Notes under the pieces: generated by a model
What the model was told of the DNA's origin: nothing
The model's input: only the letters and a program-made list of their open reading frames with translations
Databases searched by the model: none
Shown: in pieces, positions 51,487 to 57,227 of the stretch
Layout: the number at the start of each line of letters is the position of its first letter
Numbering within the stretch: position 1 is the first letter of the stretch
Translations under genes and position numbers: made by a program
Source: Bacteroidales bacterium
GTDB lineage: Bacteria > Bacteroidota > Bacteroidia > Bacteroidales > GCA-2748055
DNA: 64,000 nt
Assembly: GCA_016936975.1 (NCBI GenBank)
Contig: JAFGWU010000082.1
Span: 1 to 64,000 of the forward strand
Direction: 5' to 3'

Positions 51487-52365
51487 TCAATGGTTCTGAA
51501 CTCTGACAGCACGATTGTTAGTCCCGGCACCTTTTCGCTCCTGATATTTTACCATTTCAACCGGTAAAATAAATCCAACGGTAGATCCATTCAATGCATT
51601 ATCCTCCAGGATCAATTCTCCTCCCATCTTTTCAACCAGACCCCTGGCCAGGGAGTATCCCAGGCCTATGGCGTCCGAACTGTTGAACCACTCTTCCCCG
51701 GTATTATTATTTTCAAAGACCTTTTTTACTCTCTCCAGAATCAGCGTTCCGCCGTCATCCTTGACAGAGAACACCATGTGATTTTTATCAAGCAGGGCGG
51801 CCCCAATCTCAACCACCCCCTTTGTTTTAAGCGCCAGGGCATTACCTATCAAACAATTAAGTGCTCTTGAAAGGCGCTGCCCATCAGCTATAATCTTTAC
51901 CGATTTCAATGAATCACGAACATTGAGCAGTAAGGCAACCCTGTCTTTGTTTGGTCTGTTAGGATCAAGATGATAGAAATCAAAAAGATCCTTAAGCAGA
52001 TCGTATATCAGGACCTCCTCTTTTTTAAGCTGAAGGTTGCCTGTTTCAAACAGGGTCAGATCAATCAGATTATCCAATAAATTTAAGAGCGAATTGCTGT
52101 TGCGCGTAATATGATCAATATACTCTGCACGCTGACTGTTATTAACCTCGTCGTCTCCCAGGAGATGAGAGAACCCGATTATGGCATTCATCGGCGTTCT
52201 GATCTCGTGGGATATATTTGAGAGGAATCGGGTTTTTACCCTGGTCCCATCAGACTGAAATTGCTTCAGGGTACCCTCCAGCCAGAGAATCTTTTTTTCC
52301 AACTGGCGGGTATAGTCCATCAACTCATCATATGTCGGTTTCTCTCTCATTTCAGTCAGATACAA
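51487..52365 (-). CDS. Soluble hybrid-type histidine kinase, ATPase domain partly degenerate
   Basis: A 292-residue kinase with no membrane segment. A short coiled coil (about 10-38) leads to HisKA with His in 'FLSNISHEIRTPMNAIIGFSH' (quoted as two parts: 'FLSNISHEIR', 'TPMNAIIGF'). The ATPase domain has N-box 'LNCLIGNALAL', but the usual DxGxGI box is reduced to 'VKDDGGTLI'; the last glycine box is 'IGLGYSLARGL'. Weak ATP binding or a regulatory role is possible. It lies 46 bp downstream of the TPR/anti-sigma-like gene on the same strand. Confidence 0.78.
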   Translation of the reverse strand: MYLTEMREKPTYDELMDYTRQLEKKILWLEGTLKQFQSDGTRVKTRFLSNISHEIRTPMNAIIGFSHLLGDDEVNNSQRAEYIDHITRNSNSLLNLLDNLIDLTLFETGNLQLKKEEVLIYDLLKDLFDFYHLDPNRPNKDRVALLLNVRDSLKSVKIIADGQRLSRALNCLIGNALALKTKGVVEIGAALLDKNHMVFSVKDDGGTLILERVKKVFENNNTGEEWFNSSDAIGLGYSLARGLVEKMGGELILEDNALNGSTVGFILPVEMVKYQERKGAGTNNRAVRVQNH

Positions 52366-52411
52366 CAGCTTAACAATTATGGATCCGTTCAGTTTTGTTT
52401 AAATTTGCCCC

Positions 52412-53182
52412 CTAGCGCTGCATTTTTTTGAGGATCTTGAAGGCCTCATCCTTATAATAGCTGCTGCTGGAAGCGATCCGGGCAAACTGCCGGCGGGCGC
52501 GATCGGTCTCATTGGTTGCAAGAAAGCATAATCCAAGATACCATTCAGCTTTTTCAAGAAACATGTTATCATGCTGTTCGATAACCTTGTTGAACGATGT
52601 ACTGGCCTTGTCGTACTGGTCTGTTTCCATATAGGCAATCCCTGAATACAACGATGCATCCATTTTACCGGAGTTCGCCTCAAGAACCTTCTCGTAATAG
52701 AAGATGGCCTGTTCATAATCCTTCAGCAGATAATACCTTGATGCCTGCTGCATCAGCAGCTCCTCGGTTGCCACATTCATGTTGATATTGGCGTCCTGTG
52801 CACGGTTGGTAAGAACCAGCTCGTAGGGCTTCATATATTTCTTGAACAGATCCTTGTTTGACAATGGTCTGCCAAGAATCGTTGCGAGTCCTATGGCCAC
52901 CAGCAGTGCCAGGGCCGCGGATGCGGCATAATGCCAGGGTCTTGTAAAACGAAGAAATTTCCTCCCCGTTTCACTTCTGTGGTTTTCATTTCTCAGGTCC
53001 GTAAGCTGTGCACGGAAATCCAATACATCGGTATCGGCTATGGCTTCATCAACCTCCTGGAAAAGGTTAAGGTCTGCCAATAATTCCGGACTGGCCTCCA
53101 GATCCTGTTCAAACTGGATCATCTCTTTCTCTGAAAGCTCATGGTCCAGATACTTCTGAATAATGTGCCTGTCGTTTTTCAT
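52412..53182 (-). CDS. Membrane TPR protein with anti-sigma-like N-terminus
   Basis: A 256-residue protein. The N-terminus (about 5-50, 'YLDHELSEKEMIQFEQDL') has the pattern of Bacteroidota anti-sigma factors without the zinc ligands. One membrane helix follows (about 84-103). The C-terminal half (about 130-255) is made of TPR repeats ('YEKVLEANSGKMDASLYSGIAY') and should be periplasmic. It sits in the same locus as a sigma-70 factor and a TPR-CHAT protease, the usual company of this protein type. A role as the membrane anti-sigma of the factor at 56649 is inferred. Confidence 0.75.
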   Translation of the reverse strand: MKNDRHIIQKYLDHELSEKEMIQFEQDLEASPELLADLNLFQEVDEAIADTDVLDFRAQLTDLRNENHRSETGRKFLRFTRPWHYAASAALALLVAIGLATILGRPLSNKDLFKKYMKPYELVLTNRAQDANINMNVATEELLMQQASRYYLLKDYEQAIFYYEKVLEANSGKMDASLYSGIAYMETDQYDKASTSFNKVIEQHDNMFLEKAEWYLGLCFLATNETDRARRQFARIASSSSYYKDEAFKILKKMQR

Positions 53183-53477
53183 ATCAATAAAAAGTATTTA
53201 GTTATTTCAAAGAATCCAGATAAAGCTGCAGATGCAGTAAACCTGCATCATCGCTCAACTGTTTTCCCGGTGTCCGCATGCACGCCTGCATTCTTCCAGG
53301 TCTGACATATAATTCCTTATATGTCCGGATTCAGGGAATCTGCAATCTGCTTATCCCGCCCGCCTGAATCACCATTCTCCATTTAAACCGGTGAATCCTG
53401 CGGAAATATCCTGTATCTTTTGCGGCAAAGCCGTCTTTTTGTCTCTACCAGTAAAATTTAAATGCCTGATCAAAGAA
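53183..53477. other. Intergenic stretch with two hairpins
   Basis: No gene was found. Hairpins lie at 53231-53249 (gatgcag/ctgcatc) and 53304-53325 (gacatataa/ttatatgtc, 9-bp perfect stem). They lie downstream of the 40-codon peptide gene on its strand and may protect or end its transcript; neither has a T-run. Confidence 0.45.
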
Positions 53478-53600
53478 TTACTTCATCGGAGGAATGATTA
53501 AATCTCCACCCTTTTCAATAGACATACCTCCTTTTAAATAATTCATCTCATTTTTTGACATAGCATCTTCTGCAAAAAAATTCAGATTTAATGTTCTCAT
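53478..53600 (-). CDS. Double-glycine leader peptide (RiPP/bacteriocin-type precursor)
   Basis: A 40-codon gene. The leader ends in 'SKNEMNYLKGG' (residues 15-25), the signature of Bacteroidales GG-type natural product precursors ('LSKEEM..hKGG'), which are cut after Gly-Gly by C39-type peptidase transporters. The predicted core is MSIEKGGDLIIPPMK, lacking Cys, Ser-rich or Thr-rich stretches, so lanthionine formation is unlikely. The ATG at 53600 is preceded by 'aaccctaattac' 8 nt upstream. No modifying enzyme or transporter is in the window; the neighbour is the TPR-CHAT gene, transcribed away. Confidence 0.7.
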   Translation of the reverse strand: MRTLNLNFFAEDAMSKNEMNYLKGGMSIEKGGDLIIPPMK

Positions 53601-53823
53601 GACTTCCAGTAATTAGGGTTTAACTTAAATGTGTTTGTTGATTGTTTTCACACATTAATTCCCGGAAGTCCCAAAACGTTACCCGGATTTTGCAACTTTT
53701 TTTATTGATATATCGTAAAACCTTAACAATTAGTATTTTGAATTAATGTTTTTTTTTGAATCCTTAAAAAAAAATCTTGGATGCTATTCGAATTTTTAGT
53801 TCATTTATACAAACATTTCCGGT

Positions 53824-56652
53824 ATGATTCGTCCCCCTAACATATGGATGCTCTCCGCCATGGCCGTTCTGTTGAATGTGTTCTCCCATGGACACGGTCA
53901 AACCACAGAAGAGACCATTGAAGACTTAATTTATAAGTACCAGGTTAAAGGATATGATTTTCTCACTCAAGAAAAAAATCTTGACAGTGCTGAATATTAC
54001 TATACTAAAGCATTGGACTTACAAATAGCTTCAAATGGGAAGAAAACAGAAAAAGCCGCAGTTATCTTAGTAAACTTAGCGACAGTGTTCAAAAGAAAAT
54101 ATGATTATAAGAATTCATTTGAATGTTCAAACGAAGCAGAATCTATTCTAAAAGAAATTGATCCAGAAAGTATTTACTTTGGATTTATTTACCACAACAT
54201 TGGTAATTATTATTATAGAAGACAAGATTTAATAGAAGCAAAAAGATATTTTGAATATACTTTAGACTGGTTTAAAAAACTGGATTACTACCAGAATGAA
54301 CATTTCTATCAAGCATTTGTAAATTATATTGACCTGTTATTTAAAATAAATGAAAGTGAATTAGCAGAGGAATTATTAAATAATTATGATATAAAGAATT
54401 TGGCAACAGATAATCTCACATTGCTGGATTATTTAATATTATACGCGGAAGTTTATCTTCGACTCTCTCAAACAGATAAAGCAATTGAAAATCTGAGGCA
54501 AGCTGAAAGAATATTAAATTCAAAGAAAATAACTAAATCAATTTATTATACAACATATTATTACACTACATTAATAAGTACATTAATTATGGTTAATGAT
54601 TTTGAAAACGCTAATGAACAAGTGCAAAAAGCATTAGCCTATTTTGAAACAGTTCCAGAAAATTCCAATGATACAAAATCTAAAAAAGCAAACATATATT
54701 ATATTTTTAGTTATCTTAAATTTCTTCAGGAGGAATATGAACGCTCTTTGGAAATTGCAGATTTAGGTTTAAATTTATTCAAAGAGGTATATAGTCAAAC
54801 GGATTTAGTCAATAAAGTCCATATTTTAAGTTCAATAGAAATCATTACTCATTTAAATCTGCTGAAGAGTAGAACTTATTACAAGCTCTACGAAAAAACA
54901 TATGACCTTTCTTCTCTCTTATCATCTTACAACAATTACGGAGAAACCATCGATCTTCTAAATAAGCAGAAGCTGGCCATGCAGAATGAGGGAAGCAAGT
55001 TTCTGGCAACAGAGAATCTCCTGGATGTATATCTTGAGGCAATCAATATTGCACGGATTTTATATCATGAGACCTCTGATATTTCGCATCTTGAAGCATC
55101 ATTCCGGTTCGCTGAATCAAGTAAATCCTTTGCCCTTCTTTCGGAGATCAGGAAGGTGGAAGCCATGCAATTCGCCGGACTTCCCGAAAATATCAAGGAG
55201 AAGGATGAGCAACTGACCCGTGAGATTCAGGCATATGAAAAGATCCTGTACGAAGAGGAAAACAAGGAAAATCCCGACAGCATGGTCATTTTGAATACAA
55301 AAGATAAGATTTTTCACCTCAGAAACAGCTACAATGATTTACTGCAAACCATCGAACACAATTATGCCAATTACTACAACCTGAAATACGATCCGCATTT
55401 CGTTACCATCGGGGAAATACAAAACAATTTGAAGTCCAACCAGACTCTTGTGGAGTACGTTCTTCTGGACACAGCATTGATTACCTTTGTCATTGAAAAG
55501 GATTTTGCGAAAATCCTGTCTCAGGAAATAGATCCGCAGTTTCCGGAGGAGTGTCTCGAATTCTACAATGTCATCCATAAGCAGGACTTCAGCAATGGGG
55601 CCCACAAAACCTACCGGAATTTTGTTACGCTTGGCCAGAAGTTTTACAAGATTCTGGTGGAGCCGGTTCTGAAAACAACAGACAACAAGAACCTGATTGT
55701 TATTCCCGACGGACCCATTACCTATCTGCCTTTTGAAGCATTCCTGACCGAAGGAGCCGATCCCGAGTATATCGATTATATGGATCTGGAATATCTCATT
55801 TATGATCTTTCCATAGGATACTCCCATTCCTCGACCCTGCTCTATACCGAGCGTTTTAAAACCAAGGCACCGGAAAACAAAGTCCTGGCTTTCGCCCCTC
55901 ACTATGAGGATTTATTGGATGTAATAGACCCCGCTTCCTGGAACCGACAGTCGAACCCGGATTTCCTCCTGCCACTCCCCGGAGTGATTCAGGAGGTTGA
56001 AAAAATCGAGTTAATGGTCCCGTCGAAGGCTTTTTACAGGGAAGAGGCCACCGAGAAGAACTTCAAGGAGAATTGCTCCGATTACAATATTCTCCATCTG
56101 GCCATGCATACGCGCATGAATGATAATGATCCGATGATGTCAAACCTCGTTTTTTCGCAAACGGAGGATACTCTGAATGACAACCGGCTTTATGCATACG
56201 AGATATATAATTTGCAGCTGAATGCCACGATGTCCGTTCTCAGTTCATGTTCGAGCGGCTACGGGAACATGATGCGGGGTGAAGGAATGATGAGCCTGGC
56301 CCGGGGATTTATCTATGCCGGATGTCCCAGCATTATCATGACCCTCTGGCAGGTATCCGACAACTCCAGCGCTGAATTAATGACCTCTTTCTATAAATTC
56401 CTCAGAAAAGGCAAGAACAAACAGGAAGCGCTCCGCCTGGCCAAGTTAAATTACCTTAAGGGTGCCGACGATCTGAAATCCAACCCCTATTTCTGGTCCG
56501 GATTCGTTGGCATTGGAGACAATTCTCCCGTCTTCAGGAGATTGAATATGTATTACTGGGGGTTCCTGGCATCAGGACTTGTAATGATTATTGCGGGGAT
56601 ACAATTCTATTCCTACTGGCAGAAAAGAAAACGGAGGACCAGCCAGGATTAG
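53824..56652 (+). CDS. TPR-CHAT caspase-like protease, secreted and membrane-anchored
   Basis: A 942-residue protein. Signal peptide or anchor (about 8-26), TPR repeats (about 35-440), CHAT domain (about 540-900) and a C-terminal membrane helix (about 909-932) with a short basic tail. The CHAT catalytic pair is visible: His762 in 'HLAMHT' and Cys809 in 'LSSCSSGYG'. CHAT enzymes are caspase-like cysteine proteases, with the TPR part sensing a trigger. Topology puts the protease in the periplasm. The TPR-coding half is strikingly AT-rich compared with the CHAT half. Its stop overlaps the stop of the convergent sigma gene by 4 bp. Confidence 0.9.
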   Translation: MIRPPNIWMLSAMAVLLNVFSHGHGQTTEETIEDLIYKYQVKGYDFLTQEKNLDSAEYYYTKALDLQIASNGKKTEKAAVILVNLATVFKRKYDYKNSFECSNEAESILKEIDPESIYFGFIYHNIGNYYYRRQDLIEAKRYFEYTLDWFKKLDYYQNEHFYQAFVNYIDLLFKINESELAEELLNNYDIKNLATDNLTLLDYLILYAEVYLRLSQTDKAIENLRQAERILNSKKITKSIYYTTYYYTTLISTLIMVNDFENANEQVQKALAYFETVPENSNDTKSKKANIYYIFSYLKFLQEEYERSLEIADLGLNLFKEVYSQTDLVNKVHILSSIEIITHLNLLKSRTYYKLYEKTYDLSSLLSSYNNYGETIDLLNKQKLAMQNEGSKFLATENLLDVYLEAINIARILYHETSDISHLEASFRFAESSKSFALLSEIRKVEAMQFAGLPENIKEKDEQLTREIQAYEKILYEEENKENPDSMVILNTKDKIFHLRNSYNDLLQTIEHNYANYYNLKYDPHFVTIGEIQNNLKSNQTLVEYVLLDTALITFVIEKDFAKILSQEIDPQFPEECLEFYNVIHKQDFSNGAHKTYRNFVTLGQKFYKILVEPVLKTTDNKNLIVIPDGPITYLPFEAFLTEGADPEYIDYMDLEYLIYDLSIGYSHSSTLLYTERFKTKAPENKVLAFAPHYEDLLDVIDPASWNRQSNPDFLLPLPGVIQEVEKIELMVPSKAFYREEATEKNFKENCSDYNILHLAMHTRMNDNDPMMSNLVFSQTEDTLNDNRLYAYEIYNLQLNATMSVLSSCSSGYGNMMRGEGMMSLARGFIYAGCPSIIMTLWQVSDNSSAELMTSFYKFLRKGKNKQEALRLAKLNYLKGADDLKSNPYFWSGFVGIGDNSPVFRRLNMYYWGFLASGLVMIIAGIQFYSYWQKRKRRTSQD

Positions 56653-57227
56653 TCTTCAACCATCGCCCTGTAATCCTTGTCTGCCTTAATCTGATTGACC
56701 AGAAAATCCTTGCAGAAGTGGCGCCTTTTCCTGACATATCCTTCACTCCTGAATCCCAGGCGCTCTGCAATCTCCCTGGCATTGATGTTCTGGGCGGTTA
56801 ATTTCAGGATGGACTGACAATCCTCGGGAATCTTGAGAAGGTTGCGCTGATAGATAGCCATCCTAAGGTCCTTATCCTGAACCGGCGAAGGTTCCTCAAA
56901 TTCAATCCGCTCCTCCATATCGCGATTTAACGGATCGATATGTATCTTTTTGATCTGCCTGAGGTGCTTCAGCCAGAGTAGCCGGGATATGGAATACATA
57001 TAGGTGTTAAATGCACAATCAAGCCTGAAATCAGCTTCGTCCCTGAGTTTCTTGTAAACAATAATCAGTGCCTCCTGGAATATGTCCTCAGCATCATTTG
57101 AAGAACCAGCATTGTTTATAACAAGCTGTTTGACAGAATTAAAAGCGTTTTTATAGATGTATTGAAGAACACGGTTATCCCGTTTTCTGAGACCCTTTAT
57201 AATATCATCGTCTGACAAACGCTTCAC
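56649..57227 (-). CDS. RNA polymerase sigma-70 family (ECF-type) factor
   Basis: A 192-residue sigma factor. Region 2 (about 20-90) includes 'DAEDIFQEALIIVYKKL' and region 4 (about 135-180) 'NAREIAERLGFRSEGYVRKRR', a promoter-binding HTH. Start is GTG at 57227; no in-frame ATG lies nearby upstream. Its end overlaps the TPR-CHAT gene end by 4 bp in convergent orientation. Likely controlled by the membrane anti-sigma-like TPR protein of this locus. Confidence 0.88.
   Translation of the reverse strand: MKRLSDDDIIKGLRKRDNRVLQYIYKNAFNSVKQLVINNAGSSNDAEDIFQEALIIVYKKLRDEADFRLDCAFNTYMYSISRLLWLKHLRQIKKIHIDPLNRDMEERIEFEEPSPVQDKDLRMAIYQRNLLKIPEDCQSILKLTAQNINAREIAERLGFRSEGYVRKRRHFCKDFLVNQIKADKDYRAMVED

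Follow-up and report, generated by a model that had tools for sequence, protein, structure and literature searches.

A CRISPR-free CHAT protease, membrane anti-sigma and ECF sigma module in Bacteroidota: a probable proteolysis-gated switch with a likely secreted-peptide output

Introduction

CHAT proteases are common in bacteria, and few of them have a known substrate. In Craspase (type III-E CRISPR), the TPR-CHAT protease Csx29 cleaves Csx30 and so relieves an ECF-type sigma (PMC10028731), the cut having been placed after Leu407 (PMC9729208) or in the loop around Met427 (PMC10028731). The determinants of a P1 Arg in clan CD are an acid of helix alpha1 (MALT1 Asp365, gingipain Asp163) and loop L5 (MALT1 Glu500) (PMC4357240); in separase (C50), the eukaryotic protease that cuts cohesin, Asp2151 recognises the P1 Arg, and the equivalent residue of the Craspase CHAT is Lys670 (PMC9729208). 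Further comparisons are offered by DdvA of Myxococcus xanthus (PDB 8rot, 8rw5), a transmembrane anti-sigma of the ECF sigma DdvS that has a TPR-CHAT fold, by the DegS/RseP-RseA-sigmaE and RsiW-type RIP systems, and by GG-leader peptides with TIGR04149 precursors and C39-ABC exporters (PCAT).

The module described here lies in a 64-kb stretch of DNA from a Bacteroidales genome (the window), and its likeness to Craspase consists of a TPR-CHAT of the same fold, a proposed single cut in a sigma inhibitor, and an ECF-type sigma that would thereby be relieved. The Craspase protease is cytoplasmic and activated by RNA, whereas this one is predicted to be exported and held in the inner membrane by an anchor; the substrate there is Csx30, and here, as proposed, a one-helix membrane TPR protein; and Craspase carries a Lys in place of the Arg-binding Asp of separase, whereas here the P1 residue is mostly Arg, Glu724 and Asp846 of the protease are kept, and a GG peptide is the likely output. 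Although the logic is alike, Craspase was ruled out as a label for the module because the 64-kb window has no CRISPR array, nor any CRISPR-like repeat, and the neighbours are housekeeping genes.

With the DegS and RsiW-type systems the module shares a membrane anti-sigma, a proposed periplasmic site-1 cut and a likely M50 site-2 protease, but site-1 in DegS/RseP-RseA is a PDZ serine protease and here a membrane-fixed clan CD cysteine protease. DdvA unites anti-sigma and TPR-CHAT in one protein, whereas in the window and its relatives these are two separate genes. Separase resembles the window CHAT in its protease fold and in the P1 Arg preference proposed here, although its ExxR motif was not seen in the latter. 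The likeness to known GG-leader/PCAT systems lies in a leader ending in GG and a single C39 exporter in the genome; unlike in those systems, expression here is apparently tied to a CHAT-controlled sigma. We read the module as a proteolysis-gated sigma switch in which the CHAT cuts a membrane anti-sigma, with a secreted GG peptide as its likely output, and put the probability of this reading at about 0.68.

The Locus and Its Conservation

Read from right to left, the locus comprises an ECF sigma gene (minus strand), the TPR-CHAT gene (plus), and the GG peptide, TPR anti-sigma and histidine-kinase genes (all minus), the sigma and CHAT genes being convergent, with ends that overlap by 4 bp (Table 1). 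An earlier note, made from the letters alone, had placed a sigma, a TPR-CHAT, a GG peptide and a one-helix TPR anti-sigma within 5.7 kb, and all four genes are where it put them; its span, 51487-57227, begins at the end of a histidine-kinase gene that it did not mention. That gene lies directly downstream of the anti-sigma gene and is a conserved neighbour in the family. Kinase-like genes in two other loci (L082:5481, L141:4746) have starts resembling the window's, and the same promoter element precedes both, which suggests that the kinase belongs to the circuit.

Table 1. Features of the module in the window (positions of Glu724, His762, Cys809 and Asp846 of the CHAT and of Arg127 of the anti-sigma were checked).
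Feature	Position	Strand	Basis
ECF-type sigma gene, GTG start	56649..57227	-	TIGR02937 (sigma70-ECF) 51.8 bits, above cut-off 42.9; orthologues beside CHAT in relatives
Membrane-anchored periplasmic TPR-CHAT cysteine protease (predicted), 942 aa, proposed site-1 protease	53824..56652	+	Pfam CHAT, AF2 model, fold comparison
Catalytic His762 codon of CHAT	56107..56109	+	Invariant in alignments A1 and A3
Catalytic Cys809 codon of CHAT	56248..56250	+	Invariant in alignments A1 and A3
CHAT Glu724 codon, proposed S1-pocket acid	55993..55995	+	First helix after first protease-domain strand; covariation
CHAT Asp846 codon, proposed second S1-pocket acid	56359..56361	+	Loop after conserved Trp842; covariation
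Putative membrane anti-sigma, 256 aa	52412..53182	-	AF2 model; TPR matches; sigma gene adjoining in most relatives
Anti-sigma Arg127 codon, proposed P1 (cut before Ala128)	52802..52804	-	Invariant in 35-row alignment A4
Double-glycine leader peptide gene, 40 aa (MRTLNLNFFAEDAMSKNEMNYLKGG / MSIEKGGDLIIPPMK)	53478..53600	-	TIGR04149 22.2 bits, under cut-off 25; leader alike, conserved in relatives
Bipartite promoter element GGGTAACGTTT-N11-GGAATTAA of GG gene, proposed sigma target	53655..53684	-	Match counts in genome and relatives
Histidine kinase without obvious sensor domain, probable accessory part	51487..52365	-	HisKA and HATPase_c; synteny

The window's assembly is 3.48 Mb long and 90% complete, its closest relatives being Bacteroidales MAGs. 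Among relatives within the family, synteny extends over the block from sigma through CHAT, GG peptide and anti-sigma to kinase and to the housekeeping genes that flank it, AsnC/RlmB at one end and DUF3127/FKBP at the other, while identities fall to about 34-41% for the CHAT and to 37% for the anti-sigma; sigma orthologues adjoining the CHAT in relatives are 44-81% identical. An independent CHAT-profile scan of GTDB genomes returned 80 loci, 32 of them with 4 kb or more on either side and the remaining 48 ending early at contig ends. Both sigma and anti-sigma lie no more than 4 kb from the CHAT in 28 of the 32 two-flank loci, and the anti-sigma in 31 of them. Beside 20 unlinked control CHATs, picked regardless of anti-sigma, not one anti-sigma was found, and the only sigma was a weak match (L223). 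It is therefore a sigma-linked subset of CHATs, not CHATs in general, that carries the module. Across 149 genomes of the class, a CHAT occurs in 16 of the 17 with a full-length anti-sigma match versus 32 of the 132 others, and the module is also present in other families of the class and phylum samples. A regular separation of sigma and CHAT genes was not seen; they recur together in dozens of genomes, and both the co-occurrence of the three genes and the CRISPR-free module proposed in the earlier note are borne out.

Loci outside this pattern are also on record. Five genomes of 2-3 Mb (G097, G135, G165, G138 and G101) hold 7-14 CHAT matches each, and none of the CHATs sampled in them (L218, L219, L220, L222, L226) has a module sigma or anti-sigma next to it. 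One locus (L128) has two tandem CHAT genes, with no sigma or anti-sigma found nearby. In one class genome (G131, locus L190), alone of those with a full-length anti-sigma match, no CHAT was detected, and the linker of its anti-sigma homologue lacks the Arg discussed below. Several sigma/anti-sigma pairs (L051-L055) have the linker Arg but no adjoining CHAT, which leaves two readings, a CHAT acting in trans or a different role for the Arg.

The Sigma, the Putative Anti-Sigma and the CHAT Protease

The TPR protein has one hydrophobic helix, at about residues 87-103, and its AF2 model (pLDDT 86.6) consists of four N-terminal helices, then the membrane helix, then TPRs. TPR proteins fill the list of structural matches to the model, covering residues 132-256, and profile scores for a class I anti-sigma domain (ASD-I) stay below their cut-offs (NF052375, 21 bits vs 100; zf-HC2, 13.3 vs 22.2). 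From its architecture, this sub-threshold similarity and its pairing with a sigma gene, we infer that it is a membrane anti-sigma, which would be oriented with the N-terminus inside and the TPRs in the periplasm; the N-terminal helices would bind the sigma, and a cut would release it. In Prolixibacteraceae-type loci (L094, L112, L119, L123, L125, L132, L133) the anti-sigmas are about 505 aa long, the N-terminal sigma-binding part seemingly repeated in tandem, and these proteins perhaps hold several sigma molecules.

The window CHAT, the only one found in its genome, matches Pfam CHAT (PF12770) over residues 603-899 with 188.6 bits (cut-off 24), and also has TPR matches; His762 and Cys809, picked out in the earlier note, are correct by position and invariant in relatives. 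It has an N-terminal signal-like segment, and a C-terminal hydrophobic helix followed by a K/R-rich tail. A simple hydropathy rule finds a signal-like N-terminus in 105 of 109 linked CHATs and a helix close to the C-terminal end in 101, with a positive tail in 100 of these 101. Unlinked control CHATs have the signal-like N-terminus in 19 of 20 cases and the C-terminal anchor in none of 20, so the anchor is specific to the sigma-linked CHATs. The predicted topology is thus the secreted, C-terminally anchored, periplasmic one that had been put forward from the window alone, not a cytoplasmic one.

A sequence search of solved structures returned only TPR proteins for the whole CHAT profile and nothing significant for the protease domain, which made a comparison of folds necessary. 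With the AF2 model (pLDDT 86.0, pTM 0.82), the closest solved folds are Csx29 (VIA-align Z 26.7; Foldseek E 2.4e-14) and separase (Z 24.7, 306 residues), and Foldseek also ranks DdvA high (E 2.4e-13). Sequence similarity between DdvA, deposited as a 'CHAT domain-containing protein', and the window CHAT is near noise (E 2.6); the shared fold suggests that DdvA is a one-protein version of the module.

The Proposed Cut Site and Its Covariation with the Protease

Six residues are invariant in the 35-row alignment of anti-sigmas, Arg127 among them; the model places this Arg in a coil of low confidence that joins the membrane helix to the TPRs. Nearly all other linkers read R-S, R-G, R-A, R-D or R-N, with a minority having M-S/M-G or L-S/L-G at the corresponding place. 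These Met and Leu types were assigned from the linkers alone, by eye and regular expression, before any CHAT column was tested; partners were then reduced at 65% identity, leaving 82 non-redundant pairs, and 412 CHAT columns were tested. The best discriminator of the 412 was Glu724, present in 71/71 CHATs with an Arg-type partner, in 0/9 of the Met type and, with two Leu types added, in 0/11. Asp846 came second (70/71 of the Arg type vs 2/11 of the Met/Leu type), and His762, Cys809 and Trp842 are kept in all CHATs of both partner types. Both acids are found in all 20 unlinked CHATs, so their presence is probably the ancestral state, and their loss would have gone along with that of the linker Arg. 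On the tree there are four changes of each trait (P1 class and Glu724), and they fall on the same rows; counting switches on strongly supported branches alone leaves one independent pair, too few for a sign test. The P1/S1 covariation thus appears strong, but it is statistically not closed.

The structural setting of the two acids is consistent with a role in specificity. Glu724 is in helix 721-731 of the model, which follows strand 684-691, i.e., at the place where clan CD proteases bind a P1 Arg, and Asp846, which follows strand 836-840 and Trp842, lies in a region comparable to that of separase Asp2151. We propose that the two acids form the S1 pocket. The covariation of the linker residue with Glu724 is the best evidence that the CHAT cuts the anti-sigma at the Arg127 site, and it supports such a cut from sequence data. 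The earlier note had held that the CHAT cuts the anti-sigma within its periplasmic TPR half and so frees the sigma: cutting has gained independent evidence in the covariation, but the place has not stood, since this covariation and the invariance of Arg127 make a cut in the linker that joins membrane helix and TPRs the likely one.

The GG Peptide, Its Promoter and the Exporter

A GG gene lies within 1 kb upstream of the CHAT in 42 of 48 Bacteroidales modules, divergently in 40 of the 42, the background rate of such genes being about 0.02 per kb. Outside Bacteroidales-type modules it was found in 0 of 13 phylum loci and 1 of 19 class loci, the latter a spurious match. The promoter is missing there as well, so that the output of the module must differ in those lineages. 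Some loci (L079, L086, L088, L089, L093, L126) have tandem arrays of 2-5 near-identical GG genes upstream of the CHAT. No modification enzyme was seen beside the GG peptide gene.

Aligned intergenic DNA contains an 11-bp invariant block. The 3.48-Mb genome has the exact bipartite element once, at this GG gene, and a further match with 3 mismatches, and in five relatives all matches with 0-1 mismatch, except one, are at the GG gene. A wider form, GGGT(A/T)AC-N13..18-GG(N)AT(A/T)AA, precedes the GG gene with constant spacing in 45 of 58 loci; other matches to it number 32 in 1.05 Mb, mostly before sigma, further GG or kinase-like genes, and in other loci there is 1 match in 1.22 Mb. In Marinifilaceae the element stands 42 bp before the sigma gene itself. 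It resembles an autoregulated ECF sigma promoter, and the sigma of the module would be the one to read it, its most likely target being the gene for the small secreted GG peptide. In the tandem-CHAT locus L128, the gene that follows the element encodes a secreted protein with a Por_Secre_tail.

A single C39 peptidase was found in the genome, that of a C39-ABC transporter, whose gene directly follows a second sigma/TPR-anti-sigma pair (L204:5134-8836, contig G000:C101). The order sigma, anti-sigma, exporter recurs in most relatives with an orthologous exporter, most anti-sigmas of these exporter-linked pairs keep an Arg-Gly/Ser/Asn in the linker, and in six distant loci a similar exporter is inside the CHAT locus itself. 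The conserved GG peptide, its promoter and the linked C39 exporter together point to a secreted-peptide circuit. Among 21 genomes searched, 19 contain an M50 protease; none was found in the window's own 90% complete assembly.

Discussion

The proposed switch would work as follows. The TPR anti-sigma, as its architecture and gene pairing suggest, would hold the ECF sigma at the membrane by its cytoplasmic N-terminal part, and the TPR-CHAT, whose predicted topology is conserved, would be exported but stay tethered to the inner membrane through its C-terminal helix, both its TPR and its protease domain facing the periplasm. Once activated, the CHAT would cut the anti-sigma linker after Arg127, the Glu724/Asp846 pair providing an Arg pocket (as conservation and P1/S1 covariation suggest), and M50 and cytoplasmic proteases would complete the breakdown of the anti-sigma and set the sigma free, as after other site-1 cuts. 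The free sigma would transcribe from GGGT(A/T)AC-N-GGAAT(A/T)AA promoters, i.e., those of the GG peptide gene or genes and, in some genera, of the sigma gene itself; where the element lies, its fixed spacing and its rarity are observed, and its reading by this sigma is presumed. The C39-ABC exporter would trim and export the peptide, as indicated by the GG leader and by the exporter genes beside the second pair or the module.

What activates the CHAT may be the peptide itself: the exported mature GG peptide could be the ligand of the periplasmic TPRs and switch the protease on (or off), a form of self-sensing signalling. The divergence of GG gene and CHAT in 40 of 42 cases, a GG promoter that is the element of the proposed sigma, the tandem GG genes of Marinifilum-type loci and the alignment of the CHAT TPR half with the peptide receptors NprR (Z 24.1) and Rap all fit such feedback. 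TPR-to-TPR structural matches are generic, however, LGN scoring equally high, the GG peptides may act as bacteriocins or as effectors of another kind, and modules outside Bacteroidales-type loci keep CHAT and linker site yet have no GG gene; we therefore hold the idea as tentative. Equally speculative is the full circuit that it implies, in which a secreted GG peptide sensed by the CHAT TPRs would lead to a cut of the anti-sigma at one Arg and the sigma would make more peptide, Arg-type and Met/Leu-type pairs having co-evolved across Bacteroidota. The GG tail was also considered as an uncut pseudo-substrate; some tails have SRD after the GG, but those of the window and of many other loci have no Arg, and the idea was rejected as a general one. 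A signal from misfolded or damaged envelope material, sensed by the CHAT TPRs in the manner of DegS/RseA and with the GG peptide as one target among others, would suit the predicted periplasmic topology, the RIP-like anatomy, the secreted Por_Secre_tail protein behind one element and the occurrence of the module in non-GG lineages. With its single exact match and one more at 3 mismatches in the genome, however, the element reveals no broad envelope regulon, none of the genes found behind it codes for a chaperone or a protease, and we think such a stress switch somewhat unlikely.

An anti-phage switch like Craspase, in which infection activates the CHAT and the sigma is freed for defence genes, is brought to mind by Csx29, the closest solved fold and itself a protease that relieves a sigma by cutting Csx30 (PMC10028731), and by DdvS, the partner of DdvA, which controls a defence island in M. 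xanthus (PMC12288465). We consider it very improbable here: the window proteins have no PADLOC match (one relative gave weak TPR matches only), the neighbours are conserved housekeeping genes, the protease is predicted to face the periplasm, and CRISPR-like repeats are absent from the window. The suggestion in the earlier note of an envelope-stress or defence function accordingly found no support in the PADLOC search or among the housekeeping neighbours. More basic is the question of whether there is cleavage at all. If the genes were mere neighbours, Arg127 would be a structural or binding residue, as its presence in sigma/anti-sigma pairs without an adjoining CHAT might indicate, and Glu724 would have been lost by drift in some CHAT lineages. 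Across the 82 non-redundant pairs, however, its loss tracks the P1 class without exception, with catalytic residues retained, and all 20 unlinked CHATs have both acids, so that we regard the absence of cleavage as improbable.

The literature searched, which took in few subscription journals, held no description of a CHAT/sigma/TPR module in Bacteroidota and yielded CRISPR-protease papers only; in the papers searched, a CHAT protease sigma switch is shown only inside CRISPR systems. For this protease a substrate, a cut site and specificity residues can be named from sequence alone, and if the reading is true, the logic by which Csx29 and Csx30 control a sigma in Craspase has membrane-based relatives without CRISPR. 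In a survey from 2020, just 6% of the ECF sigmas of Bacteroidetes had an anti-sigma domain next to them (PMC7406223). The module would provide a widespread candidate anti-sigma family for these sigmas, together with its protease, and would give one family of secreted GG peptides a switch of its own.
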